Part shown: positions 6,361-47,030 of the stretch, in pieces
How the letters are laid out: each line of letters opens with the position of its first letter
How positions within the stretch are numbered: the first letter of the stretch is position 1
Assembly (NCBI GenBank): GCA_019637335.1
Contig: JAHBVV010000005.1
Location: 124,001 to 188,000, forward strand
Reading direction: 5' to 3'
Length of the DNA stretch: 64,000 nt
DNA from: Candidatus Hydrogenedentota bacterium
GTDB lineage: Bacteria; Hydrogenedentota; Hydrogenedentia; Hydrogenedentales; JAEUWI01
Made by a program: the position numbers and the translations under genes
The notes under the pieces: model-generated
What the model saw: only the letters and a program-made list of their open reading frames with translations
The model's database searches: none
What the model was told of the DNA's origin: nothing

Positions 6361-7470
6361 GCCACCTTCTTTCCAGAAAAAGCAACGGAGTTGGGCAACA
6401 CTTTAGCCGCCCGAGGCATCATATTGAAAATCGGCAGCACGACAACCGTCCGATGCGGCGGCGCGCAGAAACGGCGGCAAGCGAACCGGCGAATTACACA
6501 ACATTTCAGCAGTCTGGTGTAAGGCGCCCGGTAACATTTTAGCCGGCTGAAGCAAAGAAGGTTTTCAACCACGAATGAACACGAATTCACACGAATAAGA
6601 GAGACTATTGACCCGGTTCGAAGACTCAAATGGAACGGTAATAGGTCCGCCTTTTATCCTTTGAGCCCATGAAGAGGAGAATTTTCCCACAGATTTGCAC
6701 AGATCGCCACAGATAGGAGGTAGAGACCGGCAGCCGGTACCGGCACACAGGTGACGGATTAGTATTCGAAATAGGCGATCCTCTGGTTTAGGTAGGTGGA
6801 GCATTTCTGATCTATCTGTGCGGATCCGCGCGAAGCTTTGGGAAGACCCCTTCGTTGGGGCGAAAGGGTTGAGCTATGTTCTCCGCGGCCAATCAGGTTT
6901 CTCGCTGCTTGGTTGCCTGGCTGCGGGCCTGGGTAAAGGCCGGCCTCATGAACTGAATCTCGGTTTCTTATTCGCGTCTATTCGTGTCCATTCGTGGTTA
7001 AACCACTTTTCAACTTCATTCCGCCAAAGTCTTACAAGAATCCAAACAAGTCACATCGGAAACAGCACGCAGCCGCCTGCAAACCCCAACGACCGAAATC
7101 ATTTTCTGTTTTCTATCCGTGTCATCAGTGCAATCCGTGGGCACAATTCTTGATCACCGCCAGCGGCTGCTCCCGATGCATTCGTGTGCATTGGTGTTCA
7201 TTCGTGGTTAAGAATGCGCTCTCGATCATCGACCCAATCCATCTGCGTAACAGAAATCACCCTATGCGCTCTCTGCGTTCTATGCGGTTAAAGCTATTCT
7301 CTTTTTTTCTTCGTGACCTTCGTGCCCTTCGTGGTGATCAATTCCTTGGTTGCGGCCAGCGGCTGCCCCGTGTTCATTCGTGGTTCACTTTGTCTTCGTT
7401 GCGGTCAATGGTCGCCCCGTACTACGCAACGTTCCCGTTCTATCGGATGCGTGGCCCAAACCAAAGGGCC
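6361..7470. repeat. Patchwork of decayed dispersed repeats, no gene
   Basis: No credible gene lies in this 1.1 kb. It contains at least five kinds of short, degenerate repeats: ATTCGTGTTCATTCGTGGTT (near 6970-7000, 7188-7210, 7369-7386 and reversed at 6567-6597), CACAGAT strings (6687-6716 and reversed at 6810-6821), CTCTGCGTTCTATGCGGTTA (7270-7290), triple CTTCGTG units (7309-7335) and AACATTTTAGCCGGCTGAAG (6533-6552, related at 6398-6417). The block GCCAGCGGCTGC plus a following ATTCGTG stretch occurs twice (7159 and 7357). TGACCCGGTTCGAAG at 6609-6623 recurs exactly, reversed, at 49159-49173. Short open frames here are translations of the repeats. Confidence 0.75.
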
Positions 7471-8877: not shown

Positions 8878-8921
8878 CTATTTGGCCTCCTGCATTCGTG
8901 GTTTCGGAAACGGCGGACGCA

Positions 8922-10352
8922 TCACCAGGGACCCGTTCCTCGGAAATCCAGGCGCAGCGGGTTCCGCATCCGCCGCGCGGCCGCGTCCAGTTTTTCGTGC
9001 GCCGCGTCGGGTTCGTAGACCACCAGCATTTCCTCCGTGCCGAATATCGCGCCGGCGGCGACCGCGGTGTTCAGGTCAAGCGGGGAATTCAGCGCGCCCA
9101 GGGGATACACCATGGGCCGCGACCAGTACACAAAACCCCAGCCATACTGGCCGAGGTACGTGCACGGCGCGGATTGGGGCGTCTCGCCGCCCAGGTAATT
9201 GCCCGCGAACTGGTTCAGGCGCACCGTCGCCAGCCCGAAGCCCAGCGCCGCATTGTAGCCCGCCACCCACACCGCGTCGCGATCCAGCACGGCCAGCCCG
9301 CCAGGCGTGAAACCCGCCACCGCCGCCTCGCCCGCGACGCTTCGGAAGGCGTTGATCTCGCGCGACACCGGCGCGGTGTCTCCGGCTCGCCACGCGTAGT
9401 GTGTGAACAGCTCCGGCGACTCCGGCTCTCCGCCATCGGGGCTGCCCGGCGGTCGGCGCGAATGGCTCACCACGATCTCGCCCATGCGTATCGCGTGCGC
9501 GGACCGGGCCCGCGTCAGGCGCATGGTCGACGACACGTGCACGTGCGGATTGCGAGCGTAAAAAGTGTAGGTGATCGAAACCTCCACATCGCGGTAATTG
9601 TGCAGCGGCCCCCAGCGGCGGTAGCGGAGCGCGAGCGGACCGCCTTCCAGCGCGTGGTTGGGCGGCGCCGGCCAGTCGTAATCGTGGTCCCACGGCTGGG
9701 GCGGGCTCCAGATGTCCACCCCGAAGTGAATCGGGATGTTGCGGTAGAACAATTCCATGTCCTCGCCCTGCTTCGCGGGCAGGATACGCTGAATCGCGCC
9801 GGACCTGGGATCGAGCGCCATCCGGTAGAATTCGTTTGCCACCGTCAACCCAGGCGCCTCGCCCGCGATGTCGAGCCCGTCCGTGATTGCCGCCGCCGGA
9901 ATTGCCGCAGGCGCCTCGCCCCCGTCGGGTACCCCCCAGTGCAGCCGGTAGGTCACCGTTTCCCCCGCCGGGCAGTCCGCCAGAAAGACCACGTTGATGC
10001 TCGCGGCCGGATGCGGGGTATCCCCATCCGGCTCGGCCACGCCGCCCGCCGTCACCTCCCCCAGCGTCTGATGCGGAACCAGCGCGCCCCTGCCGTTCTC
10101 AAGCACCCGCGTCACGCGAATCGAGTCCCGCCACCGGCCGGGCGGATCCCCCGCCACGGTGAGCGTAACCTCCACCGGCTCGGCGCGGCGGGCCAGGCCG
10201 GCCGTCTCCTGAAGCACATAGTCGTAGGTATGCGCGTAGCGCCTCGCAAAGTCCGAAAGCGCGATCTCCATGGCCGCCGGCTGGGACTCCAGGCACAGCA
10301 GCGCTGCGCACGGAAAGCAAAGAAGAAAATGTACCACTCGCCGCGCCGCCAT
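8922..10352 (-). CDS. Secreted protein of unknown function, beta-rich
   Basis: A 476-residue protein with an N-terminal Sec-type signal (RRVVHFLLCF to about residue 25). I do not recognise the family with confidence. The body is rich in short beta-strand patterns, aromatic residues and Gly/Pro turns, for example DIWSPPQPWDHDYDWPAPP near residue 213, and it resembles the beta-sandwich layout of polysaccharide lyases or exo-rhamnogalacturonan lyase-like proteins; this is an impression only. It lies between a CehA-like metallohydrolase (142 bases upstream) and a sulfatase (44 bases downstream), which supports a role in breaking down an external substrate, possibly a sulfated polymer. Confidence 0.7.
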   Translation of the reverse strand: MAARRVVHFLLCFPCAALLCLESQPAAMEIALSDFARRYAHTYDYVLQETAGLARRAEPVEVTLTVAGDPPGRWRDSIRVTRVLENGRGALVPHQTLGEVTAGGVAEPDGDTPHPAASINVVFLADCPAGETVTYRLHWGVPDGGEAPAAIPAAAITDGLDIAGEAPGLTVANEFYRMALDPRSGAIQRILPAKQGEDMELFYRNIPIHFGVDIWSPPQPWDHDYDWPAPPNHALEGGPLALRYRRWGPLHNYRDVEVSITYTFYARNPHVHVSSTMRLTRARSAHAIRMGEIVVSHSRRPPGSPDGGEPESPELFTHYAWRAGDTAPVSREINAFRSVAGEAAVAGFTPGGLAVLDRDAVWVAGYNAALGFGLATVRLNQFAGNYLGGETPQSAPCTYLGQYGWGFVYWSRPMVYPLGALNSPLDLNTAVAAGAIFGTEEMLVVYEPDAAHEKLDAAARRMRNPLRLDFRGTGPW

Positions 10353-10494
10353 GCGCCTGATATCCTTCCGGTTATGTGGCCCGATTCGCTCGCCCGGACC
10401 CTTCTATCACGCGCCTCCATCGGGAGTCAATGACCGGGCAGCCGTCTGCGCGGACCCTGATAGGCGAATTCATTCGGCGCGGGGGGGAGGGGCG

Positions 10495-12690
10495 TCAGGG
10501 ACGCGCGTTCTCCAGCGTTCCGCGCGCCGCGGCTTCACGGGCGAAGGTCTCGCGCAGGGCCTCGTAGGCAGCCCGCGCCTCCCGCACGCGCTCCTTCAAC
10601 GCTTCCGCCTGAAGCGCGAGCTCCTCGATCCACTTGTCGGCGCCGATGGCGCCTTGCGCCTGGCGCGCAAGCGCGTCCGCGATTACCGTGTCGATTTCGT
10701 CGAGGCTCGCGCCGCGTTTGACCAACAGCGCGTCCACCGAATCGTACTTCCAGAAGCGGAGGTCCTCCCGCACCACATAAACGGGCGTCGTGTGGGCGCG
10801 ATAGCCTTCGGTCGCCTCGGCCCGCGCGGCGATCCAGCAACCGCCCGCCGGGTCCACCTCGATCTCGGCTTCCAGCACCGGTTTTCCGCCGGGACCCGCC
10901 TCAACCGTATGAACCACCTCGCCATGCTGGACGATTTCCAGCTTCACCGGCGTGGTGAAGCCGTCCGCCCCCCAGGTGCGCGCCCGGACCCGAACCGTTT
11001 TGCCCGGCGTGGCCGCGATTTCGTCTCCGGGAAGCGCATCGTCCACCCGCAGGTCGATCATCGGGCCGTTGGTGACGAAGGTGCGGCCACGCTCCACCGC
11101 GTCAAACCACGTGTCCGCCGTGAACTGCCCCGGGCCGGTGTAGGCGTAGACGCGGACCTCCCCGACGGTGCCGCCCCAGGGTACATCCGATCCCGCCGAG
11201 GCCGTCACCTTGATGCCGAGGTTCAGGAAGTCGTAATAGAGGTCCGTGCCCAACTGGGCGAACTGAAGCAGCTCCACGAAATCGATCAGCCCTTTCGGCG
11301 CGACCAGGGTCATGCCCCGGTGCACGTGAAATATCCCCGAATTCACGTGCGCGAAGCCCGAGAGCCCGCCCTGCGCCGACACCTGCTCGAAAATGTCGTC
11401 GTAATGGTAGTAGCGCGCCGTATCCCGCACCATATCCGTGATGTTCAGCGAGATGGTGTGCCCCAGTTCGTTATGCGTGCGCGGGCATTCCTGGCCCGGC
11501 ACGATGATATAGTCGTCCTCCTGGATGCGGAAGTCCGGACCGAACCCGCGCTGCTCGAACCAGGTGCGGTACATATCGCCCATTTTCAGCGCGTTGCCCA
11601 GGTGCACATCCTCGGCCTTCAGCCAGGTCATAAGCTGCTGTGCGTCGAAATCGCTCAGCAGTTGAAAATGAACATGGTCGTCGCCGCTGTACCACCCGCT
11701 TTCGCGCATGTCCACCCACCGCTTCGGGCGGTAGCTTCGCTCGACCGCACCGCCGGGCTGCACCGTGAACCGATCGATCACCGGAATGTGCTCCGTGCCG
11801 CGCCGCACCACCACTTCCCAGTCGCCGGGCGGCAGCACCATGTCCACCGGGCCCGGCACGCACCAGTAATTGCCCCGCAGCGCGCCGTGTAGGTTCGCCG
11901 TGCGTTTGCCCGTGCTCATGCCCGATTGCGAGTCAAACTGCGGCGTGAAGTCGAGCGCGTTCCGGGGCCGGTAGTCGCTGCGGTTGTTCAGCCAGTACAG
12001 GCGAACCATTGCGGGCGCCGGTTCGCCGGTGTCGTCGGAGAGCACCGTCATTTGCAGCCGTCCCGGCGCCGGCGTGGCCAGGTCCACGGGCAGGCTGAAC
12101 GCGGCGCCGCCGGCGGTGCGGAGCTCCACCACGATCGAGGTCGTGCGCGCCGGCGCGTTGTGCAGGGAAACCAGCACGTAACTCGTCCGGGCGGGATCGA
12201 TCTCCGGCGTGCGTACCGTGCTGAGCCCGTCGGCGAAGTCCAACTCGATCGCGATGCACGCGGGATTCCCGGCATCCTTGTTGATGCGGAAAAGCAACGA
12301 TCCCGTATCGCCGGGGAGCGTCACCGTCTCGGGTTTCGGCAGCGTCGCCGCCGGCGCGGGCAGCGACAGATCACGCAACGACGGGATACGGCCGATCATT
12401 GAGAGCAGTTCCGCCGCGCGTTCCGATCGATCCGCTTGGGCGGCCGCGCGCGCCTCGTCGGTCTGGGCCTGATCCACGGCGCGGCCAAACTGCCGGAGTT
12501 CGCGGTTAATGAGGTCCAGTTGGGCGTGCTCTTCCTGTCCCAGCAGGCCTCCGTGATGTTGGAAGAGCGCCCCCGCCAGATCCGCCGCTCCGGGGTAGGG
12601 CGTCGGCTCCTGGGATCGCGCGGAAAGCGTGAATAGCGTCAGGAGAAGCAGGCTCGCGGTGATGAAGATCATGGGGCGCGGTGGATTCAT
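10495..12690 (-). CDS. Exported CehA/McbA-like metallohydrolase (PHP domain)
   Basis: A 731-residue exported protein whose signal peptide spans about residues 1-26. After a helical N-terminal region and beta-rich modules, SGWYSGDDHVHFQ near residue 340 is the DxH metal motif of the PHP-type CehA/McbA family; later HNELGHTISLNI, GFAHVNSG and SAGSDVPWGG fit the remaining metal-ligand motifs. Known members hydrolyse carbamates or phosphoesters, but most are uncharacterised and the substrate is open. The C-terminal about 60 residues are a charged helical segment rich in Ala, Glu and Arg. Its ATG overlaps the upstream EF-hand gene as ATGA, so the two are coupled. Confidence 0.75.
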   Translation of the reverse strand: MNPPRPMIFITASLLLLTLFTLSARSQEPTPYPGAADLAGALFQHHGGLLGQEEHAQLDLINRELRQFGRAVDQAQTDEARAAAQADRSERAAELLSMIGRIPSLRDLSLPAPAATLPKPETVTLPGDTGSLLFRINKDAGNPACIAIELDFADGLSTVRTPEIDPARTSYVLVSLHNAPARTTSIVVELRTAGGAAFSLPVDLATPAPGRLQMTVLSDDTGEPAPAMVRLYWLNNRSDYRPRNALDFTPQFDSQSGMSTGKRTANLHGALRGNYWCVPGPVDMVLPPGDWEVVVRRGTEHIPVIDRFTVQPGGAVERSYRPKRWVDMRESGWYSGDDHVHFQLLSDFDAQQLMTWLKAEDVHLGNALKMGDMYRTWFEQRGFGPDFRIQEDDYIIVPGQECPRTHNELGHTISLNITDMVRDTARYYHYDDIFEQVSAQGGLSGFAHVNSGIFHVHRGMTLVAPKGLIDFVELLQFAQLGTDLYYDFLNLGIKVTASAGSDVPWGGTVGEVRVYAYTGPGQFTADTWFDAVERGRTFVTNGPMIDLRVDDALPGDEIAATPGKTVRVRARTWGADGFTTPVKLEIVQHGEVVHTVEAGPGGKPVLEAEIEVDPAGGCWIAARAEATEGYRAHTTPVYVVREDLRFWKYDSVDALLVKRGASLDEIDTVIADALARQAQGAIGADKWIEELALQAEALKERVREARAAYEALRETFAREAAARGTLENARP

Positions 12691-13352
12691 GGCGGGCTCC
12701 CTTCAGATGGGTCCTGGGACGGGGTCTTGGTCGAATTCAAAGGCGCGTGTTCGGGCGATTCGCGGATCAGCAGCGCCTCCAATGGCAGTGGTTCCTTCGC
12801 GCCGGCCGCGCGCGACATCGATTGGCCGACTTCCGCCGCGCGTACCCGCACGCCATCGCGCCCGGCGACATGCAACGCGGTCATCGCGGCAAAGTCGGGA
12901 AAGAGGCCGTTCCGAAGCTGCACAAGCGCCTCGGCCCTCCCGGCCGGCGGAACAGGCGCGAAAAACACCAGTTCAATCTCGAAGCGCCGGTGTGGCGCGT
13001 CGCCCGGGGGAGGCGCGGTTATGGACGGATCGTGCAGCGGCGCCAGCTCGACTGGTTCGCCATCCACGGAAAGCGCCAGCTCCCGCGCCGCCTGCTCCAG
13101 CACGTCCCGGCCGTACGCGGACCGCTCGGGGCGGCTGATGTGGCCGTCGCCATCCGCATCCGCAAACGCCTCCTGCACGGCCGCGTGTCGGTCGAAAAAG
13201 GTCAGGCGCACGGTCAGGTCGATGTAGTCCGGGCCGGCCTCCAGGAGAATGTCGTGCTGAACGCAATCCGAGAGCGTGGGGTGGGCCGGCGCGGGCGGCG
13301 ACAACAGCGCGCACCAGGCGCCGATCATGCACAAGAGAATTCCCCGAAACAT
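12687..13352 (-). CDS. Secreted EF-hand protein
   Basis: A 221-residue protein with a Sec signal (MFRGILLCMIGAWC, probable cleavage after PAPA near residue 23). DADGDGHISRPE near residue 65 is a canonical EF-hand calcium loop. The remainder is predicted beta-rich, including a pattern at YIDLTVRLTFFD seen in periplasmic proteins of similar layout. Its function is unknown. It starts what looks like an operon with the CehA-like gene, with which it overlaps by four bases. The intergenic region to argS is 231 bases and must hold divergent promoters. Confidence 0.72.
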   Translation of the reverse strand: MFRGILLCMIGAWCALLSPPAPAHPTLSDCVQHDILLEAGPDYIDLTVRLTFFDRHAAVQEAFADADGDGHISRPERSAYGRDVLEQAARELALSVDGEPVELAPLHDPSITAPPPGDAPHRRFEIELVFFAPVPPAGRAEALVQLRNGLFPDFAAMTALHVAGRDGVRVRAAEVGQSMSRAAGAKEPLPLEALLIRESPEHAPLNSTKTPSQDPSEGSPP

Positions 13353-13583
13353 TCGTCCTCCCGATCGCCCCGGGCGCGGGGCGTTGAAGCCGAATCCACG
13401 CTCCTATTAGAGCAGAACGCCCGAATTTGCGCAAGCGCCCCGCGCGCCACGGCCCCGGCGAACGCGCGGTCCGCCGCGCCGCCGGGACCCCGCCGCAGCC
13501 CGCGATCTGGCCGTGCGCATGGGAAATGCGCTATTATAGGCGGCTCAACACATCCATCCCGATTGCCCGTGAGGAGTATCTCC

Positions 13584-33481: not shown

Positions 33482-34870
<1,389 letters not shown>

Positions 34871-34934: not shown

Positions 34935-36695
34935 TCAGCCGCGATCGCTCTCCGTCATCGAATAGCTCATGCGGGGCTGGGACGTGCGCCGGGCCTCGGG
35001 AACCAGCTCGCCAAACCACGCGTCGTTCTTTCGCATCACCTGTACCGCGCGGTGGCACACCTCGCACGACACCTCCGCCCCCTCGGTCGTGGCTTCGTTC
35101 AGCTGGATGAAGGTGCTGCAGAACGGGCAGGCGATGCTGCGCTCGGAACTCTTGTAGTAATCCTGGAGGATCCGGTCGATTTTTCCGTTGCGGAAGCAGC
35201 GGATCAGCGCGTCCGCACACGCGGGATCGAACTGGGTGCCCTTGTTCTCCTCGATGATCTGGATGGCCTTTTCCGGATCGAGTCCCTTGCGGTACGGGCG
35301 GTTGCTCGTGAGCGCGTCGAAGGTGTCGCCCACGGCCAGGGCGCGGCCCTCAATGGGTATGTCTTCCCCGGCGAGGCCCTTGGGGTAGCCCTTGCCGTCG
35401 TAGCGCTCGTGGTGGTACAGGCAGTACGGGATCAGCGGCTCCAGGAAACTGACGTCTTGCAGGAGTTGCGCGCCCTTCTCCGGATGCACCTTGATCTTAT
35501 CGAACTCCTCGTCGGTGAGGCGGTCGGGTTTCCGGAGGATCGCGTCGTCCACGGCGATCTTGCCGACATCGTGGAGTACGCCGCCCATCCTGACTTCCTT
35601 GATCTTTTCCTCGGACCAGCCCAGTTCGCGCGCCACCTCGATCGTGAAATTCGTCACGCGCCACGTGTGGCCCACGGTGTAGTGGTCCCGCAATTCGATG
35701 GCGTTTGCGAGCACGAGCAGCGTGTCTTCGTAGGCTTTTTCCAGCATGCGGACATATTGCGCATTCTTGATGGCGACGCCGGCGGGGCCCGCCAGGGCGA
35801 CGAGCAACTCCAGGTCGCTGTTGACGAACGCGTTCGTGGCGCCCCGGGTATCCACGTAAATGACCCCGAGCCGCTCGCTCTGGCAGGTGAGCGGCGCGCA
35901 CATCGCCGACGCGATATTGTGGCTGATGATGCTGGCGCCAGTCTCGAAGCGGGAGTCGTCGGCGGCGTCAAACGTAATAATCGCCTCGCCATGCTCGAAT
36001 GCGCGGTTCACGATCGAGGAACTGATCTTCACGTCGACATTCTGGTTGCCCGACCGCACGTACTCCGTCACCAACTCGTCGCTGCCGGGCGCCTGGAGCA
36101 GGATCACCCCGTTGTGGGCCGGGATGAGCTGGAAGATTTCCTCCATGACCCGCGCGAAGAGCTTGGAAAGGTTGCGCTCGCTCGTGATGATTTCGTTCGC
36201 GGAGTACACCGCGCGGAGGCGCTGCTGGATTTCGGCCAGCTTCGCGTCGCTCGCCGCCGCCCCCGGGCTCTGAAAAAACGTCTCGTACACGTTGGCGGCC
36301 TTGGCCGTCTCGTAGCGCGTACCCATGGAGTTGTCGAACTTCACGCCGCTGCTACCGCGCTCCGCTTCGCGGGTGGCCTCGGCCTGGACCTCTCCCTGAT
36401 CCACGGCTTCGGACTCAAAGCGCAGATCGTGGGTGCCGAGCCGGATGATGTTCCCGCTGGAGAGCTTGTACTCCACGATCTTGCGATCGCCAATCCAGGT
36501 GCCGTTGCCGCTGCCCAGATCCTTGACGACGGTGGCGTGCTCTTTCTGCTCGATCACGGCGTGCTGCCGGGATATCTGGAGATCCTCAAGCTGCAAGTCG
36601 TTGTCGGGGTTGCGCCCGATCGAGAGCTTGCCCTTGATCTCCACCGACGACCCCTGAAGGGGGCCAGTGAGTATTACCACCCGTTCTTTTCTCAT
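34935..36695 (-). CDS. FHA-GAF-HD-GYP signalling protein with zinc-ribbon tail
   Basis: A 586-residue cytoplasmic signalling protein. An FHA phosphothreonine-binding domain (about 20-95: SIGRNPDNDLQL, ISRQHA, GSGNGTWI) is followed by a GAF sensor domain (about 170-320) and an HD-GYP phosphodiesterase domain (about 330-510) with HDVGK and HHERYDGKGYP, the motifs of active cyclic-di-GMP hydrolases. The C-terminus carries CPFC and CEVC (Cys523/526/544/547), a likely zinc ribbon. This FHA-plus-zinc-ribbon arrangement around HD-GYP links Ser/Thr phosphorylation, a small ligand and cyclic-di-GMP. It is divergent from the exopolysaccharide operon starting at 37065, a process often under cyclic-di-GMP control. 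Confidence 0.9.
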   Translation of the reverse strand: MRKERVVILTGPLQGSSVEIKGKLSIGRNPDNDLQLEDLQISRQHAVIEQKEHATVVKDLGSGNGTWIGDRKIVEYKLSSGNIIRLGTHDLRFESEAVDQGEVQAEATREAERGSSGVKFDNSMGTRYETAKAANVYETFFQSPGAAASDAKLAEIQQRLRAVYSANEIITSERNLSKLFARVMEEIFQLIPAHNGVILLQAPGSDELVTEYVRSGNQNVDVKISSSIVNRAFEHGEAIITFDAADDSRFETGASIISHNIASAMCAPLTCQSERLGVIYVDTRGATNAFVNSDLELLVALAGPAGVAIKNAQYVRMLEKAYEDTLLVLANAIELRDHYTVGHTWRVTNFTIEVARELGWSEEKIKEVRMGGVLHDVGKIAVDDAILRKPDRLTDEEFDKIKVHPEKGAQLLQDVSFLEPLIPYCLYHHERYDGKGYPKGLAGEDIPIEGRALAVGDTFDALTSNRPYRKGLDPEKAIQIIEENKGTQFDPACADALIRCFRNGKIDRILQDYYKSSERSIACPFCSTFIQLNEATTEGAEVSCEVCHRAVQVMRKNDAWFGELVPEARRTSQPRMSYSMTESDRG

Positions 36696-37064: not shown

Positions 37065-38078
37065 ATGGATGAATCGCAGTCGTATCTTGGCCTGCTGGGC
37101 TTACGGGAGCAGCCCTTTGCACCCACCGCGGACCCCGTGTATTTCTTCGCCACCCAGGGCCACAAGGAGTGCCTCTTCCGCCTCTGGAACGCGATTGACG
37201 CCCGCCATGGCATTGCCGTCGTGCTCGGGAACTACGGCACCGGCAAGACCACGCTCCTGCGCAAGTTGCTCACCGGCATGGCCGCGGATCCCGACCGCTA
37301 CCTGACCGCTGTCGTTGGCTCGCCCATCCCCTCCTGGACGAGTTTTGCGCTGCTGGAAAGCATCGTCGCCCAGTTCGGGCTGCGCCCCCGGGAAAACTCC
37401 TTCGTCGCCCACATGGAGGCGCTGAACCAGCACCTGCTCGAGAACCGCGGCCGCATCTGCACCCTGATCATCGACGACGCGCAAAACCTCAACAAGCGCG
37501 GCCAGCTCGAGCTCCTGCGGCTGATACAGAACCTCGAAACCCAACAGCAGAAACTGCTCAACCTGCTCCTCTTCGCTCAACTCGAATGGGTCCAGGTGCT
37601 TCGCGCAGCCCCCAATTTCGAGCAGCGCGTCAACCTCACCTACACCCTCCAGCCCATCGAGTTCGAGGAAATGCGGCAGTTCATCGACTTCCGGCTGCGC
37701 CAGGCCGGCGCGGATACCGGCACGGGGCCCGCCTTCGAGGACGCCGCCCTCCGCGCTATCCATGCCTGGGCCGAGGGCAGCCCCCGCGTCATCGTGACGC
37801 TCTGCCGGAACGCGCTGCTGCTCGCCGCCCAGTTACAGACGAAGACCATTACGCCCGAAAATATCCTGCACACCATCGACAAGACGGCCCTTCCCGACCC
37901 GGAACGCCGCGCCCGCGCCGCCGCGGCGGCGGGAATGCCCGCGCGCGTGCTCGGGGAAACGACCGGCGCCGGAATCTTCCGGGAACCGGCGCCGAGGACC
38001 CCACAGGCCCGCGATCGCCGCGCCGCCGACATGCTGCTGCGGTCGGCCCGCGATCGCCAGGGAGCGGGCGGCGAATGA
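37065..38078 (+). CDS. ExeA/GspA-like AAA ATPase
   Basis: A 337-residue ATPase of the ExeA/GspA group, which in type II secretion helps assemble the secretin through the cell wall. The opening YLGLLGLREQPFAPTADP is diagnostic, followed by YFFATQGHKECLFRL. Walker A is GNYGTGKT (55-62) and Walker B LIIDDAQNL (about 134-142); sensor residues follow at LLNLLLFAQLEW. Unlike ExeA it has no membrane segment or peptidoglycan-binding domain at the C-terminus, which is a short disordered tail. It begins the operon containing a secretin-fusion gene, so a role in secretin or exporter assembly is a reasonable inference. Its stop overlaps the next start as ATGA. The ATG at 37065 was chosen over a repeat-like upstream extension to 36918. 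Confidence 0.88.
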   Translation: MDESQSYLGLLGLREQPFAPTADPVYFFATQGHKECLFRLWNAIDARHGIAVVLGNYGTGKTTLLRKLLTGMAADPDRYLTAVVGSPIPSWTSFALLESIVAQFGLRPRENSFVAHMEALNQHLLENRGRICTLIIDDAQNLNKRGQLELLRLIQNLETQQQKLLNLLLFAQLEWVQVLRAAPNFEQRVNLTYTLQPIEFEEMRQFIDFRLRQAGADTGTGPAFEDAALRAIHAWAEGSPRVIVTLCRNALLLAAQLQTKTITPENILHTIDKTALPDPERRARAAAAAGMPARVLGETTGAGIFREPAPRTPQARDRRAADMLLRSARDRQGAGGE

Positions 38079-40096
38079 GCGCGGAAGCCGAACACGATCG
38101 GGCCCCTCTCGCCACCGGCGATGAATGGCAGTCGTCTGACGTTGATGATTCTCTGGAGGGCGCGCTCATGCGCGGGATTCCCGCGGATGCCCGCCTCGAC
38201 AGCGGCGTACCCGAGGGGCAGCGCGCGAATGCGCTCGACTTCATTCAAATGTCCGGCTTGACGCGCCCGCCCGCCCGCGCCACCGAAGCGCCCGATCCCG
38301 ATTTGAACCCGTCCGCGCCCCTGAGCTTCTACGAGGCCGGCGTGGCGGATGTCGACGAGGAGGCGAGTCTCGCGGCGCTCTCCAGCGGTCCCCGGGACCT
38401 CACACTCGACGCCAACCTGGCCCCCGATCCCGCCGGGGAGACCCTGGGCGCGGAAAGCGAGCACGCCGCGGCGGCCTTTCAGGCAATTATTGACGCGTTG
38501 GAAGCCGGGCGGGCGCCCGGTCACGTGCTCGAGGATCCACCCGCGCCGGCCCCCGAAGCCGTCGAGCTCCCCGAGGGCCTGGATGCGCATGGCGTGGATC
38601 CCGGCCCGCTCCCGGAATCGGCCAATCCCATCCGTGATCACCGGCCAGTTGCGTGGCGATCGGCGCCGTCCGCCGGCGATCCCGAGGAGGACGGGCCCGC
38701 CGTGCCCGATCCGGATCCCGGCGGCGCCGGCGTGGAGTTCGCGGTCCCGGAAGCGATTCCCGGCGAGGACGGCGACTTCGACAATTTTCTGGAAGACGGG
38801 GTCATCCATTCCGCCGTGGACGAGGCGCCCCACCTGGAGCTGGCGGCTCGCGCGGAACTTGATTGCGATCCGGAGGGAATGGCGCCGGAAACCGCCCCGT
38901 CCGTTTCCAGCCCCCACCGCGAGGCGCTGCAAAAAGCCGAGCAATTGATGAATTCCCTCGGGCAGCCGCCAGCGGCCGGAATGCCCGCCCTCCCGGAAAT
39001 CCACATTGGCGAAGAACCCGCCGCCGCTCCGCCTCGTGCGCTGGAGCTGAACGGGAGTGGGGGAGAGGAAAGCTACAGCCAGGCCCATGCCCGCCGCCGG
39101 TCGCGCCGGCACTCCCGCCTCGCCCGAAGGATGTGGCGCACCGCGCGTCTGATCGCCGGCGTGGCCACGGCCGCGGCCATCGTGGCGGGAATCTGGTTCT
39201 ATGTGCTCGCGCCGGGGCTCGTCCGAACGGAAGACCGCGCCGCGCAGGCTGCCCGATTCATGGTCGGCCGGCAGTACGCGGATGCCGCCGCGGCGTATGA
39301 GCAGGTCGCCTCCCGCGGTGGCCCGAGCCGCGCCGACGCGCTGTTTCACGCCGCGAACGCGACCCTGCTTTCGGTCGGGAATGACACCCCGACCGACGCC
39401 GCCCGGCCCCGCTACGAGCGGGCGCTCGCGCTTTTCGCGTCCTTTGCCGAAGAATTTCCCCAGCACCCGAAGCGCCCGCGGGCGCTCGCGTTGACCGGAC
39501 GGGTGCACTTCGAAGCGCAAAATTACGACGCGGCGATCGCTGTGCTACGCGATCAAATCGTTCCCGCGGACGATCCCGCGGCCGCCTTGATGGTCCTGCG
39601 CTACCTGGCGCGGGCCTACCGGATGAAGGGCGCGTACGACGAGGCCGAAACCGCATACCTACAGGCGGCCACGCTCCCCGACAATTTCAGCGCGGAGGTC
39701 GACTACCGGGAACTGGGCGATATGCACCGCACCCGCGCCGGCCTCGCCGAAACCGACGCGGACGCGCGCCGCGCGCACGAAGAAACCGCCTCGCGATACT
39801 GGAACCGTGCGCTCCAGACGCCCGGAATCGCCCCCGCGGCGGCGGCGGAACTTCACGAGCGCCTTCAGTGGCAGTCTTTCACAGGCGATCCGCCCGCAAC
39901 CGCGGCATCCGAGCCGGTGGCCGTGGCGCGGCCCGCGGCACAGACGCCGGCGGATGATACGGCCGAATTCGGCGTGGCGGCGCCGGGTGCGCCCGCCCCG
40001 CCATACGATTCGCCCGTCGAGCGCCGGGAGGACCCGGGGGCCGAACTGGAGGCCTGGACGCGCGGCGCTGCCGCCGCGGGCGCTCCGCATGAATAG
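38075..40096 (+). CDS. Single-pass membrane protein with acidic N-region and TPR-like tail
   Basis: A 673-residue protein I do not recognise as a whole. Residues 1-340 are low-complexity, rich in Asp, Glu, Pro and Ala and probably disordered in the cytoplasm. A basic stretch (RRRSRRHSRLARR) precedes one membrane segment at about 357-380 (LIAGVATAAAIVAGIWFYVL). The periplasmic part has TPR-like helical repeats (MVGRQYADAAAAYEQVA, ALALTGRVHFEAQNYDAAIA, AYRMKGAYDEAETAYLQAA), then a Pro/Ala-rich end. This architecture resembles GspB-like or pilotin partners that pair with ExeA-type ATPases, which is suggestive because such an ATPase gene overlaps its start. Codon use is GC-rich like its neighbours. 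Confidence 0.75.
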   Translation: MSAEAEHDRAPLATGDEWQSSDVDDSLEGALMRGIPADARLDSGVPEGQRANALDFIQMSGLTRPPARATEAPDPDLNPSAPLSFYEAGVADVDEEASLAALSSGPRDLTLDANLAPDPAGETLGAESEHAAAAFQAIIDALEAGRAPGHVLEDPPAPAPEAVELPEGLDAHGVDPGPLPESANPIRDHRPVAWRSAPSAGDPEEDGPAVPDPDPGGAGVEFAVPEAIPGEDGDFDNFLEDGVIHSAVDEAPHLELAARAELDCDPEGMAPETAPSVSSPHREALQKAEQLMNSLGQPPAAGMPALPEIHIGEEPAAAPPRALELNGSGGEESYSQAHARRRSRRHSRLARRMWRTARLIAGVATAAAIVAGIWFYVLAPGLVRTEDRAAQAARFMVGRQYADAAAAYEQVASRGGPSRADALFHAANATLLSVGNDTPTDAARPRYERALALFASFAEEFPQHPKRPRALALTGRVHFEAQNYDAAIAVLRDQIVPADDPAAALMVLRYLARAYRMKGAYDEAETAYLQAATLPDNFSAEVDYRELGDMHRTRAGLAETDADARRAHEETASRYWNRALQTPGIAPAAAAELHERLQWQSFTGDPPATAASEPVAVARPAAQTPADDTAEFGVAAPGAPAPPYDSPVERREDPGAELEAWTRGAAAAGAPHE

Positions 40097-40145: not shown

Positions 40146-41624
40146 ATGATAAGCATGGTGAAAATCGGGTGGGCCGCCGCCCTGATCGCGGCCCTGTGCG
40201 CGGCGGCCACGGCTCCCGCGCAGCCCGCGGAGGATGGCCCGCTGAAGCCGGGCGATCTGGTCTACATCAACGTACACCGCCAGCCCGAGCTGTCCGCCGC
40301 CACCCAGGTCGATGGGAATGGCAACGTGGAAATGCCCTACATCGGCAACGTTGCCGTTCAGGGCCTCGCGCTCGAAGCCGCCGCCGACCGCATCGCGCTC
40401 GGGCTCAAGAGCGTACTGAAAAGCCCGCGTGTTACCGTGACCCGTAGTTCGGAACGGGGAGCCTTCCCCCAGGCGTACATGCGAACCCAGTCCATGCAGA
40501 CCCAGGTCGTTCCGCTGGACAACGCCGATGCGGCAACCCTCGAAGCGGCCCTGTCCGGTATGTCCAGCGGCGGCGGAAGCGTCAGCTTCGATCCGGCGAC
40601 CAACAGCATGATTCTCACCGACGAGCCCGCCGTGTTGCAGAACATGATGGGCGTCATCCGCGAGCTGGACCAGATGAAATCCCAGATCACGCAGGTGCTG
40701 ATCGAGGCCAAAATCGTCGAAGTCGAGACGGAGGCCGCCAGGGAGCTGGGTGTGCGCTGGTTCGTGCAGGGCGATCGCGCGGGCGGCGGCTACACCCCCT
40801 CGCCCCGCCGCGACGCCCTCCTCAATTCAATCCGCCAGTTCTCGGGGCCCAACGCCAACGAGTCCCTCCAGAGCAACGCCCGGAACACGGGCGCCGCCCT
40901 CAACAGGCGCTTCATCGACGAGGACATGTTCGACCGCCGGCTCCAGGTGCCCGTCCAGGTCGCCGCGCCCGGGCAGATGTTCTTCGGCTACATGAACAGC
41001 GGCATCGACCTCGGCCTCATGCTCGATGCCCTCGTCGCCGACGGCAAGGCCGAATTGCTCGCATCCCCCTACATCGGAACGGTAAACCACCGGTCGGCCT
41101 CGATCCGCATGATCGAGGAATTCCCCTACACCGAACTCGGAACCGCCGGCTTTTCCGCTGTGGAACACATCCGCTTTCTGGAAATCGGAATTAAGATGGA
41201 CGTGACGCCCCATGTACGGCGGGATCCCGACGGCGAGCGCTACATCCTCGTGGAGCTCTCGCCCGAAGTCTCCACCGCCGTCGGCGTTTCCAACGGCGTG
41301 CCCGTACGCGCGGTCCGCTCCAGCGAAAGCCAGCGCATCGTCCGCGACGGACAGTCCCTCGTAATCGGCGGGATCGTCATGGCCGACAACCACACCGTGA
41401 TCCAGAAGCTGCCCGGGCTTGGGAGTCTGCCCATCTTCGGCAATCTCTTCAAACACAAGGAGCGAAGCCAGACGAGCCGTGAACTCATGATCTTCGTGAC
41501 ACCCACCATTCACGACCGCCCCGAGGATATCCGATGGGAACGCAGCCTCGACCTGCAGGGATTCGGCCACGACGACGCGTTCCTGGCCGCCCTCGAAGCG
41601 CGCGCCGAGGTGCGAAAAGACTAG
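40146..41624 (+). CDS. Fusion of polysaccharide-export domain and secretin
   Basis: A 492-residue exported protein with a Sec signal (cleavage near APAQ, residue 25). Residues about 31-100 form a Wza-type polysaccharide biosynthesis/export domain (LKPGDLVYINVHRQPELSA, VDGNGNVEMPYIGNVAVQGL). About 117-178 is a NolW/N-type secretin ring domain (VVPLDNADAATLEAALSG, TNSMILTDEPAVLQNMMGVI), and about 180-455 is the secretin beta-barrel domain ending in VIGGIVMADNHTVIQKLPGL and GSLPIFGNLFKHKERSQTSR. Wza proteins normally end in an alpha-helical outer-membrane barrel and secretins normally lack the export domain, so one chain appears to join the glycan-recognition part of one exporter to the pore of another. 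GGGAG at 40134-40138 fixes the ATG at 40146. It is four bases from the BY-kinase gene. Confidence 0.88.
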   Translation: MISMVKIGWAAALIAALCAAATAPAQPAEDGPLKPGDLVYINVHRQPELSAATQVDGNGNVEMPYIGNVAVQGLALEAAADRIALGLKSVLKSPRVTVTRSSERGAFPQAYMRTQSMQTQVVPLDNADAATLEAALSGMSSGGGSVSFDPATNSMILTDEPAVLQNMMGVIRELDQMKSQITQVLIEAKIVEVETEAARELGVRWFVQGDRAGGGYTPSPRRDALLNSIRQFSGPNANESLQSNARNTGAALNRRFIDEDMFDRRLQVPVQVAAPGQMFFGYMNSGIDLGLMLDALVADGKAELLASPYIGTVNHRSASIRMIEEFPYTELGTAGFSAVEHIRFLEIGIKMDVTPHVRRDPDGERYILVELSPEVSTAVGVSNGVPVRAVRSSESQRIVRDGQSLVIGGIVMADNHTVIQKLPGLGSLPIFGNLFKHKERSQTSRELMIFVTPTIHDRPEDIRWERSLDLQGFGHDDAFLAALEARAEVRKD

Positions 41625-41628
41625 CGCC

Positions 41629-43887
41629 ATGTCCACGAGCCTCGATACCCCCATACTGGACGACGCGCCGCGCCAGGGAAGAGACAACTTCCGATCCGTG
41701 CTCAACGTGCTCGCGGATCGGTGGCTGTTGCTACTCGCCGGCACGCTGCTCGGCGCGCTCGCGTTCGGCGGGGGGATGTGGCTCACGCGCGAAGTCACCC
41801 CGGCGCGCTACCAGGCCACCGGAAGCCTCTATATCAAGCCGGCCCAGTACTCTATCCTCTCCCCTCAGTCACCGCGCTCCGATTTCACGCTGCGGGCGGA
41901 ACAGATCGTCAAGGAAACCAGCGTCGCCGCGCTCGCCGAAAAGGTGGCGCAGGCCCTCATACAGCGCGACATCGCCACCGGCGGGCCGCTCAGCGGCGTC
42001 GTTGCCCCGGAGGAGTTCAAGCGCGAGGCCGCCCGGATCGAGGCCCGGCTCGCCCTCAGCCCCCTGACCGAGGACGGCGTCGGAAAGGTCGAGATCCACG
42101 TGCGGGATTGCGCGTCTCCGGGCGAGGCGGAGGATATTGCCGAGTACGCCTCCCGGGTCTTCGTGGAAATGAACCGGCAGGTGCACCTCGAAGACGTCCG
42201 GGAGAAACACGCCTTCATACGGCGCCATATCGAATCCCTCAGGACGGCCCTGGCCGGCGCGGAAGCCGATCGCCTCGCCTTCAAGCAGCGCCACAGCGGA
42301 CGCCCCTACGAAAACATCGACGAGGAATTGGCGCGCAAGGACCGCGAACTGCGCGAAATCGAGGCCGCAGGCGAGGCCGCGGCGCGGAAACTGAGCGATC
42401 TCGAGGCGGAGCTTGTGCTTGCCGGGGAGCAGTTCCCGGAAGCCCTGAACCAGCCCAGCGACAACCTCGTGGCCGGACTGTTCGCCGAGCTGGACGCCCT
42501 GCTCGAAGAGAAAATGACCCTCAGCGCAATCTACCAGCCCGCATGGCCGCGTCTCGTCGAGCTGGAGGAAGAGATCGCCGAGGTCCGCGAGGTCATCCTC
42601 GAAGCGGAGCGGAGGCGCGATTCCGGCGTCCCCGGAGGCAGCGATATCTGGGCCAAACGCAAGGAAATATACCAGCAGCAGATCGACCTCCGGCTTCAGA
42701 TGGCCTCCCTCGAAATCCAGGCCGGGGCCATCGAGCGAGAGCGGGAAACCCTCCTGCCCCAACTGCCCGAACTCGCCAACCTCAAGTGGACCGCGGACAG
42801 CCTCAAGCGCGAAGTCGACAACATCGAGGAGCAACTCAACAAAGCCTCCGACAGGGAGCTCGAAGTGCGCGCAAGTATCGAGCACGGCCTCGGCACCGTG
42901 GAGCGGTCCGCCTCCGCGCCCATCGTCGGCGTGCCCGAACGGCAGCCGGGCAGCCGCAATGTCTGGATCAACTTCCTGATTGGCGGGCTGGCCGGCGCGC
43001 TACTTTCCTTCGCCCTGGCCATGGCCGTCGAGTTTAACGATACCTCCATCCGCAGCATCGACGATGTGAACGAATACATCGGACTCGAAGTCATCGGAAC
43101 CATCCCCCGAATGCGCTTCGGCCGCCCCCGCGGAAACCGCCGCCGCCGCGCAACCTACGTCAGCACCGTCGACGAGGAACAGATCGACAGCTGCATCGTC
43201 ACCCAGCACGACCCCAAGTCGCCAATCTCGGAGGCCTACCGCACCCTCCGAACCAACTTCCAGTTCGCGACCATTCAGAAGAAACCGCGCACCCTCATGG
43301 TGACCAGCGCGGTCCCCGGTGAAGGCAAGACCACCACAGCCGTGAATCTTGCCGTGACCATGGCCGACCGCGGCATGCGCGTCCTCCTCGTCGATACCGA
43401 CCTGCGCCGCCCCAACGTACACCGCGTCCTCCGCATGGAGCGCGGCCCCGGGCTCGCCGATGTCTTGCGCGAGGGCGTTGACCCCGACACCGTCATACGA
43501 AAAACACGCATCGACAACCTCTGGGTCGTCTCCAGCGGGCGCGTGCCGCCCAATCCGTCCGAGCTGATGGGCTCCGACGCAATGGAGCACCTCATGCGCA
43601 AGCTCGGAGCCGCCTTCGACCTCGTCATCTGCGACGCGCCCTCGGTACTCGTCGTGACCGACCCCGTCCTCCTCGCCACCCATGTCGACACCTGTATGAT
43701 GGTCGTCTCCACAAACAATGCCCGCCGCGAGACCGTTGTCCGCGCGAAAAAGCTCCTCCTCACCGCCAAAGTCGATGTCGCAGGCGTCGTCGTGAACGGC
43801 CTGGAGACCACCCGCCGCCACTACTACTATTACTATTACTACTACGACGACGGCTCCGCCGGCCGCCGCAAGTGGTACCACTTCTAG
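41629..43887 (+). CDS. Wzc-like tyrosine autokinase (Wzz plus BY-kinase)
   Basis: A 752-residue polysaccharide co-polymerase with fused bacterial tyrosine kinase. Membrane segments lie at about 31-50 and 441-463. Between them is a long coiled-coil periplasmic region. The cytoplasmic kinase has Walker A SAVPGEGKTT (560-569), Walker A' LLVDTDLRRP (586-595) and Walker B VICDAPS. The C-terminal autophosphorylation cluster is eight consecutive tyrosines (732-739) plus one more near the end. In Wzc-type systems cycling of this phosphorylation sets chain length and controls export through the outer-membrane partner, here presumably the secretin fusion encoded four bases upstream. It therefore ties the fusion protein to polysaccharide rather than protein secretion. 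Confidence 0.93.
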   Translation: MSTSLDTPILDDAPRQGRDNFRSVLNVLADRWLLLLAGTLLGALAFGGGMWLTREVTPARYQATGSLYIKPAQYSILSPQSPRSDFTLRAEQIVKETSVAALAEKVAQALIQRDIATGGPLSGVVAPEEFKREAARIEARLALSPLTEDGVGKVEIHVRDCASPGEAEDIAEYASRVFVEMNRQVHLEDVREKHAFIRRHIESLRTALAGAEADRLAFKQRHSGRPYENIDEELARKDRELREIEAAGEAAARKLSDLEAELVLAGEQFPEALNQPSDNLVAGLFAELDALLEEKMTLSAIYQPAWPRLVELEEEIAEVREVILEAERRRDSGVPGGSDIWAKRKEIYQQQIDLRLQMASLEIQAGAIERERETLLPQLPELANLKWTADSLKREVDNIEEQLNKASDRELEVRASIEHGLGTVERSASAPIVGVPERQPGSRNVWINFLIGGLAGALLSFALAMAVEFNDTSIRSIDDVNEYIGLEVIGTIPRMRFGRPRGNRRRRATYVSTVDEEQIDSCIVTQHDPKSPISEAYRTLRTNFQFATIQKKPRTLMVTSAVPGEGKTTTAVNLAVTMADRGMRVLLVDTDLRRPNVHRVLRMERGPGLADVLREGVDPDTVIRKTRIDNLWVVSSGRVPPNPSELMGSDAMEHLMRKLGAAFDLVICDAPSVLVVTDPVLLATHVDTCMMVVSTNNARRETVVRAKKLLLTAKVDVAGVVVNGLETTRRHYYYYYYYYDDGSAGRRKWYHF

Positions 43888-43949: not shown

Positions 43950-45461
43950 ATGGCCCTGTTCCGATCAGAGCGCGGCATCGGCCGCGGCGAAGTCGCCGAA
44001 AGCCAGATCGAAGTCCCCGTGTTCGCGGCCTGCATGCTGCTGTGCAGCCTCTGCCTGGTGCTCCAGCATCTCATCCTGGCCAACGACAGCCTCACACTGG
44101 CCCTCGCCGTAAGCCTCGTTGTCTTCGGCGGGACCGTCCTCAAGGTCGAAGTCGGCCTCTTCGTCCTCCTCGCCGCCATGATGCTCTCCCCCGAGATCGA
44201 ATTGGCGGAAGGCTCCAATGTGCTCCGGAGCGTTACCGTGCGCTACGGCGATCTCCTGATCGTCATTATCTTCCTCGGCGTCATGGTGAAGCTTACCTTC
44301 GAGGGCCGCGTCAGATTGTGGCAGCCCAGCCCGATCAACGCCGCTATCGTGACCTACTACGGCGTGTGCATACTCTCGACCCTCCTGGCGCTCGAACGCG
44401 CCCTCCCCGCCTGGGACCGCGTCGACGCCTTCTTCGTCATGGTCAAAATGCTCGAGTTCTACCTGATCTTCTTCCTCGTCGCGCACGCGGTCCGGCGCTC
44501 CCGGGAGATTCGCGCCCCCCTCGCCATGCTCTACCTCGTCATGCTGGCCGTCAGCATCTACGCCATCTACAGCATCCGGACAACGCCGAGGGTGAGCGCC
44601 CCCTTCGAGCACGGCGGCACCGAGCCCAATACCCTCGGCGGCTATCTCGTGCTCTGCCTGTGCGTGGCGTTGGGGCTCCTGTTGCAGGCGCCCCGCCCCC
44701 GCCAGAAGCTCCTCTTCCTCGCCATCGGCATCACGGGCTTCATCCCCCTCCTCTACACCCTTTCGCGCGCATCCTACGGCGCGCTCGTCGCCGGCGTCGT
44801 CGTCATCGCGCTCGTTACCCGAAACTACATCATTATCGCCGCCGTCGCGGGCGTACTCCTGTTCTCGGCCGCCATCATGCCCGAACGCGTCATCGAGCGC
44901 GTCACCAACACCGTGCCCGATCAGGGAGGCGTGCAGCTCGAAATCCTGGGCAGGGACCTCGGGGTGAGCGTCGACAAATCCACCTACGAGCGCGTCCACG
45001 TCTGGCGCAAGGTGGGCTTCATCCTCTCCCTCGGCGCGCCCTATTTCCTGCTTGGCGGCGGCGTGGCCTGGGAGTCCGTCCTCGACAGCCAGTACGCGCG
45101 CGTGCTCCTGGAAACCGGCTTCCTCGGATTCCTCGCCTTCCTGTTCCTCCAGTGGCGGCTCCTGAAAACCGCCCGGGAAGCCTACCTCTGGACCGAGGAT
45201 TGGATGTCGCGGGGAATTGCCCTGGGCATGCTGGGAGCCACCGTCGCCCTCATCGTCCACTCCATCGGAACGATATCATTCCTGATCGTGCGGATTATGG
45301 AGCCGTACTGGTTCCTGATGGCCCTCGTCGTCTCCATTCGCAACGAGGCCCTCGCTATACACTGGCATCGGCACCGTGCCAGGAAGCAGGCCCCGCCAAC
45401 CCGGGAAACGCCCGAAACCCCAGATCCGGCGGTACACGGGACTGGCGTTTCGCCGGTATAG
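43950..45461 (+). CDS. O-antigen ligase/polymerase-family membrane protein (Wzy/WaaL)
   Basis: A 503-residue integral membrane protein with about twelve hydrophobic segments. The family's large periplasmic loop lies near residues 308-372 (MPERVIERVTNTVPDQ to GGGVAWESVLDSQYARVLLE), and ALERALPAWDR and LYTLSRASYGA carry conserved arginines typical of the Wzy_C/O-antigen ligase superfamily. It either polymerises the repeat unit or ligates the finished chain; sequence alone does not decide. It starts 62 bases after the BY-kinase and is the last gene of the operon. The last about 25 residues (TRETPETPDPAV, ending TGVSPV) look like translated dispersed repeat sequence, so the original C-terminus may have been earlier. 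Confidence 0.85.
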   Translation: MALFRSERGIGRGEVAESQIEVPVFAACMLLCSLCLVLQHLILANDSLTLALAVSLVVFGGTVLKVEVGLFVLLAAMMLSPEIELAEGSNVLRSVTVRYGDLLIVIIFLGVMVKLTFEGRVRLWQPSPINAAIVTYYGVCILSTLLALERALPAWDRVDAFFVMVKMLEFYLIFFLVAHAVRRSREIRAPLAMLYLVMLAVSIYAIYSIRTTPRVSAPFEHGGTEPNTLGGYLVLCLCVALGLLLQAPRPRQKLLFLAIGITGFIPLLYTLSRASYGALVAGVVVIALVTRNYIIIAAVAGVLLFSAAIMPERVIERVTNTVPDQGGVQLEILGRDLGVSVDKSTYERVHVWRKVGFILSLGAPYFLLGGGVAWESVLDSQYARVLLETGFLGFLAFLFLQWRLLKTAREAYLWTEDWMSRGIALGMLGATVALIVHSIGTISFLIVRIMEPYWFLMALVVSIRNEALAIHWHRHRARKQAPPTRETPETPDPAVHGTGVSPV

Positions 45462-45527: not shown

Positions 45528-47030
45528 TTAGTGGCCGCGCGCGGAGTCCAGCCGCGGCACCGCGTAGGTCCCCATGCGAATCTGGTCAAACATGCTCTGG
45601 TCCGTCGCGAAGGCCTGCGCGTGCTCCAGGTCAATCATCTTGTCCTTGAAGAGCTTATGCAGATAATGCTCGAACAGGAACGAATGCGAAACCGTCTGCT
45701 GCATCCCGACCCGGATATGGTCGGTGCTCCCTTCCATGATGCCGTCCGCAATGGCCTTCACATCGTTCAGCATCATCTCCAGCGCGGGGACGCGCCCGCC
45801 GCCGATCCGCGGCACCAGGCGCTGGTTAATCACGCACTTCAGCGCGTCGCGCAGCTGGAGCTTCACCAGATCGCGCTCGACCGGGTCGAAGAAGCTGACG
45901 ACCCGGTTGACCACCTCCGCCGCCGTGTTCGCGTGCAGCGTGCTGATCACCAGGTGCCCCGTGGCCGCCGCGTTGATTGCGGCCCGGATCGTGTCCGGAT
46001 CGCGCATCTCGCCGATAAGGATCACGTCCGGATCGTGGCGCAATGCGCCCGTGACCGCATCGTAGAACGACTCCACATCCGCGCCCAGGTTTCGCTGCGA
46101 GAGGATGGACTTCTTATTCGAGTGCACAAACTCGATCGGGTTCTCGATCGTGAGGATGTGGCTCGACCGGTTCGCGTTGATCCAGTCGACCAGCGCCGCC
46201 ACCGTCGTGGTCTTGCCGCTGCCGGTCATTCCGGTCACGAGCACCAGGCCCCGGTGCAGCTTCGCCATCTGCTCCATCGTCTTCCGCGGCACGTGCAGAT
46301 CCTCGAAGCTCGGGATCGTCTCCGGGAGGTACCGGATCGTGCAGTGCGGCGCGCCGGATTTCAGGAACGCCGAAATGCGCGAATAGCCCAGGCCGGACTG
46401 GTGGTAATTGAAGCTGGTTTGCTTGTGCTCGACGAACTCGTTCCAGTATTCGTCCAGCGCCACCTCGCGGATAAGCGCCGTGATCTGCACCGCCGAAAGC
46501 GGCCCCATCAGGTCTGACGTGCGGGTGTCGCCGTCAATGCGGAATACCGGGCTGCAACCCGGCGAAAGGTGCACGTCGCTCGCCTTGTACTGGACCATCG
46601 CCTGGAACAACAGCTCCACGCTCACGCGATCGATCCGGTACTTGTCGCCCTCCGCGCGCCAGACTTCCGGAATGCTCAGGCCCGCGCACAGCGCGTCGAG
46701 CTTGGCCAGGCAAGCCTGCGCCGATCCCGGATCCGGCGGCGCAAACGCGATCCGCAGGGAGCCGCCGTCCCGGGTGCACGCGCAGCAATCCGCCATGGCC
46801 CCGGCGCGGCGCTCCATTTCCGCGGCCAGCGGGTGATCCGGCTCCAGCGTGATCCAGAAATGGGTGAACGGCCCCTCAAACTCCGCGCGCTCCGCCACAA
46901 AATGAAACCCACCGCTCGTGGCCGAAATCTTCCGGGGAACGCCCTCCGTGCGCACGGCATGCTTCACCAGCATATCCGAAATCTGGCGCAGATTCTTCTG
47001 CGCTCCCGTACCTAACAAAAACAAGGCCAT
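45528..47030 (-). CDS. PilT-like ATPase with N-terminal extension
   Basis: A 500-residue AAA+ ATPase of the PilT/PilU twitching-motility group. Residues 1 to about 128 form an extra alpha/beta domain with no family I recognise. The core starts at LFQAMVQYKASDVHL (the PilT PAS-like domain), then GMTGSGKTTTVAALVDW (Walker A), the Asp box ILTIENPIEFVH, Walker B DVILIGEMRDPDTI and the His box STLHANTA. AIRAGK-like pilus signature is replaced by QTVSHSFLFEHYLH. No pilin, pilC or pilQ gene is nearby. It converges with the polysaccharide-secretin operon, so it could power a retraction or export step there, or be a solitary PilT-like regulator. Confidence 0.9.
   Translation of the reverse strand: MALFLLGTGAQKNLRQISDMLVKHAVRTEGVPRKISATSGGFHFVAERAEFEGPFTHFWITLEPDHPLAAEMERRAGAMADCCACTRDGGSLRIAFAPPDPGSAQACLAKLDALCAGLSIPEVWRAEGDKYRIDRVSVELLFQAMVQYKASDVHLSPGCSPVFRIDGDTRTSDLMGPLSAVQITALIREVALDEYWNEFVEHKQTSFNYHQSGLGYSRISAFLKSGAPHCTIRYLPETIPSFEDLHVPRKTMEQMAKLHRGLVLVTGMTGSGKTTTVAALVDWINANRSSHILTIENPIEFVHSNKKSILSQRNLGADVESFYDAVTGALRHDPDVILIGEMRDPDTIRAAINAAATGHLVISTLHANTAAEVVNRVVSFFDPVERDLVKLQLRDALKCVINQRLVPRIGGGRVPALEMMLNDVKAIADGIMEGSTDHIRVGMQQTVSHSFLFEHYLHKLFKDKMIDLEHAQAFATDQSMFDQIRMGTYAVPRLDSARGH

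Follow-up and report, generated by a model that had tools for sequence, protein, structure and literature searches.

Can a secretin let a polysaccharide out of the cell? The question is raised by an operon known from the Hydrogenedentota, a little-studied bacterial phylum, where sugar polymers may leave the cell through such a pore, as predicted here from sequence. The OPX literature recognizes three routes for polysaccharides across the outer membrane: the alpha-helical pore of an OPX protein, the single-chain barrel found in synthase pathways, and a composite of OPX protein and barrel. The original prediction, made from the window (the whole stretch of DNA analysed, 64,000 nucleotides), was that one protein of this operon joins a Wza-type export domain to a secretin, and that the locus encodes a glycan exporter with a secretin outer-membrane pore.

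The fusion protein and its domains

A single uninterrupted frame on the forward strand (40146-41624), its ATG at 40146 preceded by GGGAG, encodes a protein of 492 aa (Table 1). Poly_export (PF02563; 63.6 bits, cut-off 28), one Secretin_N domain (PF03958; 53.3 bits, cut-off 28.2) and Secretin (PF00263; 117.3 bits, cut-off 27.5; profile positions 1-167 of 169) all score above the Pfam cut-offs, so the predicted joining of the two kinds of domain in one protein is borne out. The VIGGIV and LPIFGNLF motifs that had been claimed are both in the sequence. The export domain is N-terminal as stated, but it does not fill a third of the protein; it takes up 72 of the 492 residues, about a sixth. Neither STN/N0 nor SLBB was found when searched for on the fusion (Pfam, E<=1). 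Past the Secretin domain no further domain is matched at the same threshold, and the last 30 residues are variable save for E-x-R-K-[DE]. This motif ends nearly all Hydrogenedentota fusions, behind the otherwise variable tail, and may be where an assembly partner binds.

Table 1. Features of the operon and its upstream flank, in window coordinates
Feature	Position	Strand	Basis or conservation
Sigma-54 response regulator, beside the FHA-GAF-HD-GYP gene	33482..34870	-	Found in only 3 other loci
Divergent FHA-GAF-HD-GYP protein	34935..36695	-	Divergent neighbour in 15/20 loci with room
AAA_22 ATPase, XrtA/PEP-CTERM-ATPase-like	37065..38078	+	TIGR03015, Pfam; kept in 21/21 loci
Inner-membrane-anchored protein, C-terminal TPR region	38075..40096	+	TPR matches; kept in 25/25 loci
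Fusion protein: signal peptide, Poly_export (PES/D1), Secretin_N, Secretin	40146..41624	+	Pfam, orthologues
Sec signal peptide, approx. residues 1-26, without lipobox	40146..40223	+	Sequence prediction
Poly_export/PES domain, residues 28-99, in place of the usual secretin N0	40227..40442	+	Pfam
Secretin_N (KH-like N domain), residues 119-180	40500..40685	+	Pfam; GspD N domains in PDB match
Secretin barrel/gate domain, residues 295-455	41028..41510	+	Pfam; PDB PilQ/GspD matches
Conserved C-terminal motif E-x-R-K-[DE]	41607..41621	+	Orthologue alignment
Wzc-type co-polymerase with BY-kinase domain	41629..43887	+	TIGR01007, 178.6 bits, cut-off 108
Eight-tyrosine tail of the kinase	43822..43845	+	Run of eight in 16/18 orthologues examined
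Wzy-type polymerase/ligase, polytopic membrane protein, last gene	43950..45461	+	Wzy_C E=0.015, below cut-off

The fusion is present in 28 of 68 Hydrogenedentota genomes, spread over several families at 40-79% identity. The contig of one (G065) holds it only from residue 190 on, and in another (G026) one stop interrupts the reading frame; a 29th match (G039) was rejected as an ordinary long secretin. Starts of open reading frames in genomes other than that of the window were set by rule. Poly_export, Secretin_N and Secretin are present in all 21 aligned Hydrogenedentota orthologues. The original prediction had set a domain search as the test of whether the N-terminus is just an ordinary N0, and it is not: STN/N0 is matched by Pfam in none of the 21, while a control type IV pilus secretin (L161:8747-10300) does give an STN match. 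SLBB (E<=0.1) and a lipobox pattern are likewise found in none of the 21 sequences.

A profile of the junction (fusion residues 31-195), built from the 21 orthologues and run against the PDB, points the same way. Its first half matches the D1 domain in crystal structures of Wza (2w8i, 7.7e-7; 2j58, 9.2e-7) and another polysaccharide export protein (9n9a), and its second half the N domains of GspD and PilQ, with E down to 1e-19. With Poly_export matching Wza D1 and N0 missing, the fusion is therefore a secretin in which N0 is replaced by the D1, or PES, domain of Wza. A monomer structure prediction, made from an alignment of two sequences only (window and L009), gave a mean pLDDT of 32.5.

Gene neighbourhood in two phyla

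In the Hydrogenedentota loci with room, the order on the same strand is ATPase, TPR protein, fusion, Wzc-type protein and Wzy-type protein. Several loci are cut by contig ends, and neighbours were counted in loci with room only: the fusion is accompanied on its own strand by the ATPase in 21 of 21, the TPR protein in 25 of 25, the Wzc-type protein in 24 of 24 and the Wzy-type protein in 20 of 20. The predicted co-occurrence with Wzc and Wzy is thus conserved. The homologues lie outside pilus, type II and type III gene neighbourhoods; a consistent place in pilus or type II loci, without glycan genes, had been named as grounds for rejecting the idea. When the 68 genomes were searched independently for the Wzy-type protein, an orthologue was found in exactly the 28 that carry the fusion and in none of the 40 others, a correspondence inflated by shared ancestry. 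Neither the operon nor the conserved surroundings of the Hydrogenedentota loci showed a gene for a pilin, PilC, GspE/F or PilMNOP, and the conserved five genes include no separate beta-barrel gene.

The Wzc-like kinase gene starts at 41629, four bases downstream of the fusion as had been stated, and its score against TIGR01007, the model of the polysaccharide tyrosine autokinase family, is above the cut-off. Two membrane segments flank the periplasmic part of the protein. The run of eight tyrosines in its tail is almost unchanged across the phylum, a regularity unusual for a BY-kinase tail. The operon does end in a Wzy-like enzyme. A second-phylum homologue, with 26% identity to the window protein (E=1e-41), passes the Wzy_C cut-off, and the polymerase role of the window protein is putative, by way of this homologue rather than its own score.

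An ExeA-like ATPase of the secretin-assembly kind had been proposed for the first gene of the operon, and this identification falls. Its best match is the XrtA/PEP-CTERM exopolysaccharide ATPase family (TIGR03015; 153.2 bits, below the cut-off of 324.5), it has no peptidoglycan-binding domain among its Pfam matches and no predicted membrane segment, and no counterpart lies beside the second-phylum fusion. The TPR protein has a single membrane segment at residues 359-377, with the TPR part after it. The N-terminus of about 358 residues (window 38075-39150) is long, acidic, cytoplasmic and poorly conserved, with no domain detected.

Upstream, the divergent FHA-GAF-HD-GYP protein is likely a c-di-GMP phosphodiesterase and probably a regulator of the operon; the sigma-54 response regulator is a possible one. 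Together they suggest c-di-GMP-linked control of the operon. Matches to a sigma-54 promoter upstream of the ATPase gene were no better in the window than in shuffled sequence, and the other loci had no consistent site. Downstream, a convergent gene (45528-47030, reverse strand) encodes a PilT/PilU-family ATPase (344.7 bits, cut-off 319) with about 139 additional residues at its N-terminus; eight other genomes have such a gene in the same place.

A search for conserved glycosyltransferases around the Hydrogenedentota operon found none. In these bacteria the glycosyltransferases, flippase and initiating transferase do not adjoin the operon, a point against the exporter reading, and in the genome of the window the initiating transferases and flippases are sited elsewhere. 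The Secretin model matches eight places in the genome of the window, and the fusion is therefore not its only secretin. The one other Poly_export protein there is an ordinary lipoprotein-type OPX protein without a secretin domain, in an exosortase exopolysaccharide locus (L076 about 5038-13563, on contig C39 of G000) that also holds a Wzc-like protein and a PrsT-like TPR protein. The exosortases of this genome, on C39 and at C5:56895, are more than 100 kb from the operon.

The same fusion is carried by two genomes (G152 and G387) from one family of another phylum. In G152 it scores 62.8 bits for Poly_export, 39.5 for Secretin_N and 146.5 for Secretin (Pfam). The genes run in the order TPR protein, fusion, Wzz/GNVR co-polymerase, tyrosine kinase, Wzy_C protein (above the Pfam cut-off) and four glycosyltransferases, three with group-1 (GT4-type) domains and one of family 2; the order in G387 agrees. 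This arrangement is the strongest evidence for the putative glycan substrate of the fusion. The second-phylum TPR partner (L130:10108-11772) has, ahead of its membrane segment, a cytoplasmic part resembling a RecG C-terminal/HATPase_c_4 regulator. When several hundred other bacterial genomes were searched with the junction profile, no further phylum appeared among the best few candidates per genome, a search in which rare or divergent cases can be missed; among the best matches in plasmid records there were only ordinary secretins. One N0-type secretin of another phylum (L162:1813-4134, 773 aa) has an unusual architecture of its own, with some 300 extra C-terminal residues containing TPR-like repeats.

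When secretin domains are placed on a tree, the Hydrogenedentota fusions come together in a single clade (100/99). The pair from the second phylum clusters with an N0-bearing secretin encoded in a PilM-PilN-PilO locus (99/93). By this grouping the secretin half is therefore nearest, in the present sample, to pilus-type secretins. The two groups of fusions are separate on the tree; a topology that places them in a single clade is not rejected (AU p 0.189). The common gene order in both phyla argues for a single origin, or a transfer, of the fusion. An exchange of N0 for PES on a pilus-type secretin describes the change most simply.

A predicted export route and its alternatives

Three things are established from the sequences: that the fusion exists, that it is conserved, and that it stands in fixed linkage with genes for a co-polymerase/kinase and a Wzy-type enzyme, joined in the second phylum by glycosyltransferases. 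We consider it probable that the operon encodes a Wzy-dependent system for exopolysaccharide assembly and export with a hybrid outer-membrane translocon; the idea of a glycan exporter with a putative secretin pore thus finds support in both the domain and the neighbourhood surveys. The Wzy-type enzyme would polymerize (or ligate) lipid-linked repeat units in the periplasm, and the Wzc-type protein would set chain length, itself controlled through phosphorylation of the eight tyrosines in its tail. By its PES domain the fusion would dock on the co-polymerase at the periplasmic part, in the way that D1 of Wza docks on Wzc. The polymer would then cross the outer membrane through the beta-barrel and gate of the secretin, and not through an alpha-helical pore like that of Wza or a separate barrel of the EpsX type. 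A part in assembly or energizing is likely for the TPR protein and the ATPase, their roles being guesses.

N0 is the domain by which ordinary secretins attach to the inner-membrane parts of type II and pilus machines. Wza without D1 shows markedly lowered colocalization with Wzc (PMC12881504). D1 in place of N0 would retarget a secretin to a Wzc-type co-polymerase, such as the next gene encodes, and it is by such a swap that a pilus-type secretin may have been turned to the service of a polysaccharide machine. In solved PDB entries, rings contain 8 chains in Wza and 12-15 in secretins. A secretin ring would therefore not fit an octameric co-polymerase one to one, and how an eight-fold ring and a 12-15-fold ring fit together is the structural problem posed. 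Despite this mismatch, we lean somewhat towards a fourth kind of outer-membrane polysaccharide translocon, a gated, multimeric secretin barrel coupled to a Wzc-type protein by replacement of N0 with PES. If this is true, the secretin route is a fourth way for polysaccharides across the outer membrane, and secretins serve generally as export pores, the docking domain at the N-terminus deciding what they carry. It suggests that they can be retargeted to new cargo by the swap of one such domain.

The fusion might instead be a secretin for a protein or filament, such as a matrix protein secreted together with the polysaccharide, its PES domain merely anchoring it near the exopolysaccharide machine while the polysaccharide leaves by another route. 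Its secretin domain does group with the pilus type, the nearest N0-type secretin being that of the PilM-PilN-PilO locus, and in the window and the eight other genomes the PilT/PilU-family gene is found convergently downstream. That gene, however, is on the opposite strand and is absent from many loci, and the pilus and type II parts listed above are seen neither in the operon nor conserved around it. Such tasks could fall to the other secretins of the genome, and the operon has no other candidate outer-membrane pore; we judge this explanation to be rather unlikely. The complete secretin barrel domain of the fusion (profile positions 1-167 of 169) and the lack of a barrel gene in the conserved operon also tell against a periplasmic or outer-membrane scaffold, with the polymer passing through a separate beta-barrel encoded elsewhere in the manner of EpsX/EpsY. 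Short Myxococcus OPX proteins without an outer-membrane segment do work with a separate barrel (PMC9601211, PMC9603273), and a scaffold here would have a precedent, yet we think it decidedly unlikely.

It is very improbable that the fusion is an ordinary type IV pilus or DNA-uptake secretin lying beside glycan genes by chance. The matches to PilQ (TIGR02515, 183.7 bits) and GspD (TIGR02517, 185.8 bits) that favour this are under the curated cut-offs of 284 and 351, N0 is absent in 21 of 21 orthologues, and in both phyla the gene has a fixed exopolysaccharide context. An artefact of gene fusion or assembly might be suspected, as most of the genomes are draft assemblies in many contigs, but the same fusion at such varied identity in 28 Hydrogenedentota genomes of several families, and in two of another phylum, cannot be put down to chance or to chimeric assembly; we regard this explanation as already refuted, with practically no probability left to it.

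Comparison with known export systems

One of the nearest parallels is the Wza-Wzc capsule exporter of E. coli, a Class 1 OPX system (PMC12881504, PMC9603273), with which the operon shares a PES/D1 domain in the outer-membrane component, a BY-kinase co-polymerase with a tyrosine tail and a Wzy-type enzyme. Where Wza has SLBB domains (D2/D3), a Wza_C alpha-helical pore and a lipidation motif, none of these is detected in the fusion, which has a secretin barrel domain in their stead. All three published OPX classes contain SLBB domains, and a lipoprotein signal is present in about 78% of Class 1 proteins and is not strictly defining (PMC9603273). EpsY/EpsX of Myxococcus xanthus (PMC9601211) likewise combine an OPX domain with a beta-barrel outer-membrane pore in a Wzx/Wzy-type pathway. 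EpsX, however, is a separate 18-stranded barrel, whereas here OPX domain and secretin barrel belong to one chain, and no gene for the Wzx step lies nearby. The word ‘secretin’ is absent from the two OPX surveys (PMC9603273, PMC9601211), and a literature search, with most subscription papers outside its reach, found no paper pairing Poly_export with Secretin_N or ‘secretin domain’.

From the other side, PilQ and GspD share with the fusion the Secretin_N and Secretin domains, their order and the motifs of the gate region; in the fusion N0 gives way to PES, and the operon is without pilus or type II parts. XrtA/PEP-CTERM loci contain related families of co-polymerase (TIGR03007), tyrosine kinase (TIGR03018) and ATPase (TIGR03015), and the operon proteins score below the cut-offs for the first two (67.8 bits against 278.85 and 155.7 against 230.65). 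There is no exosortase in the operon, in contrast to those loci, and its export protein is the secretin fusion, unlike the OPX lipoprotein of the genome's own exosortase locus.

A further comparison is with filamentous cyanobacteria, in which mutation of pilB or pilQ abolishes exopolysaccharide production, and export of the Wzx/Wzy-type hormogonium polysaccharide through the secretin PilQ has been proposed (PMC12288463). There, PilQ is an ordinary pilus secretin and the Wza-type protein is separate, whereas here the two are one polypeptide in a glycan operon. The fusion bears on the cyanobacterial question of whether a Wzx/Wzy-type polysaccharide can leave through a secretin, because both halves are on one chain and in one operon and can be tested jointly.
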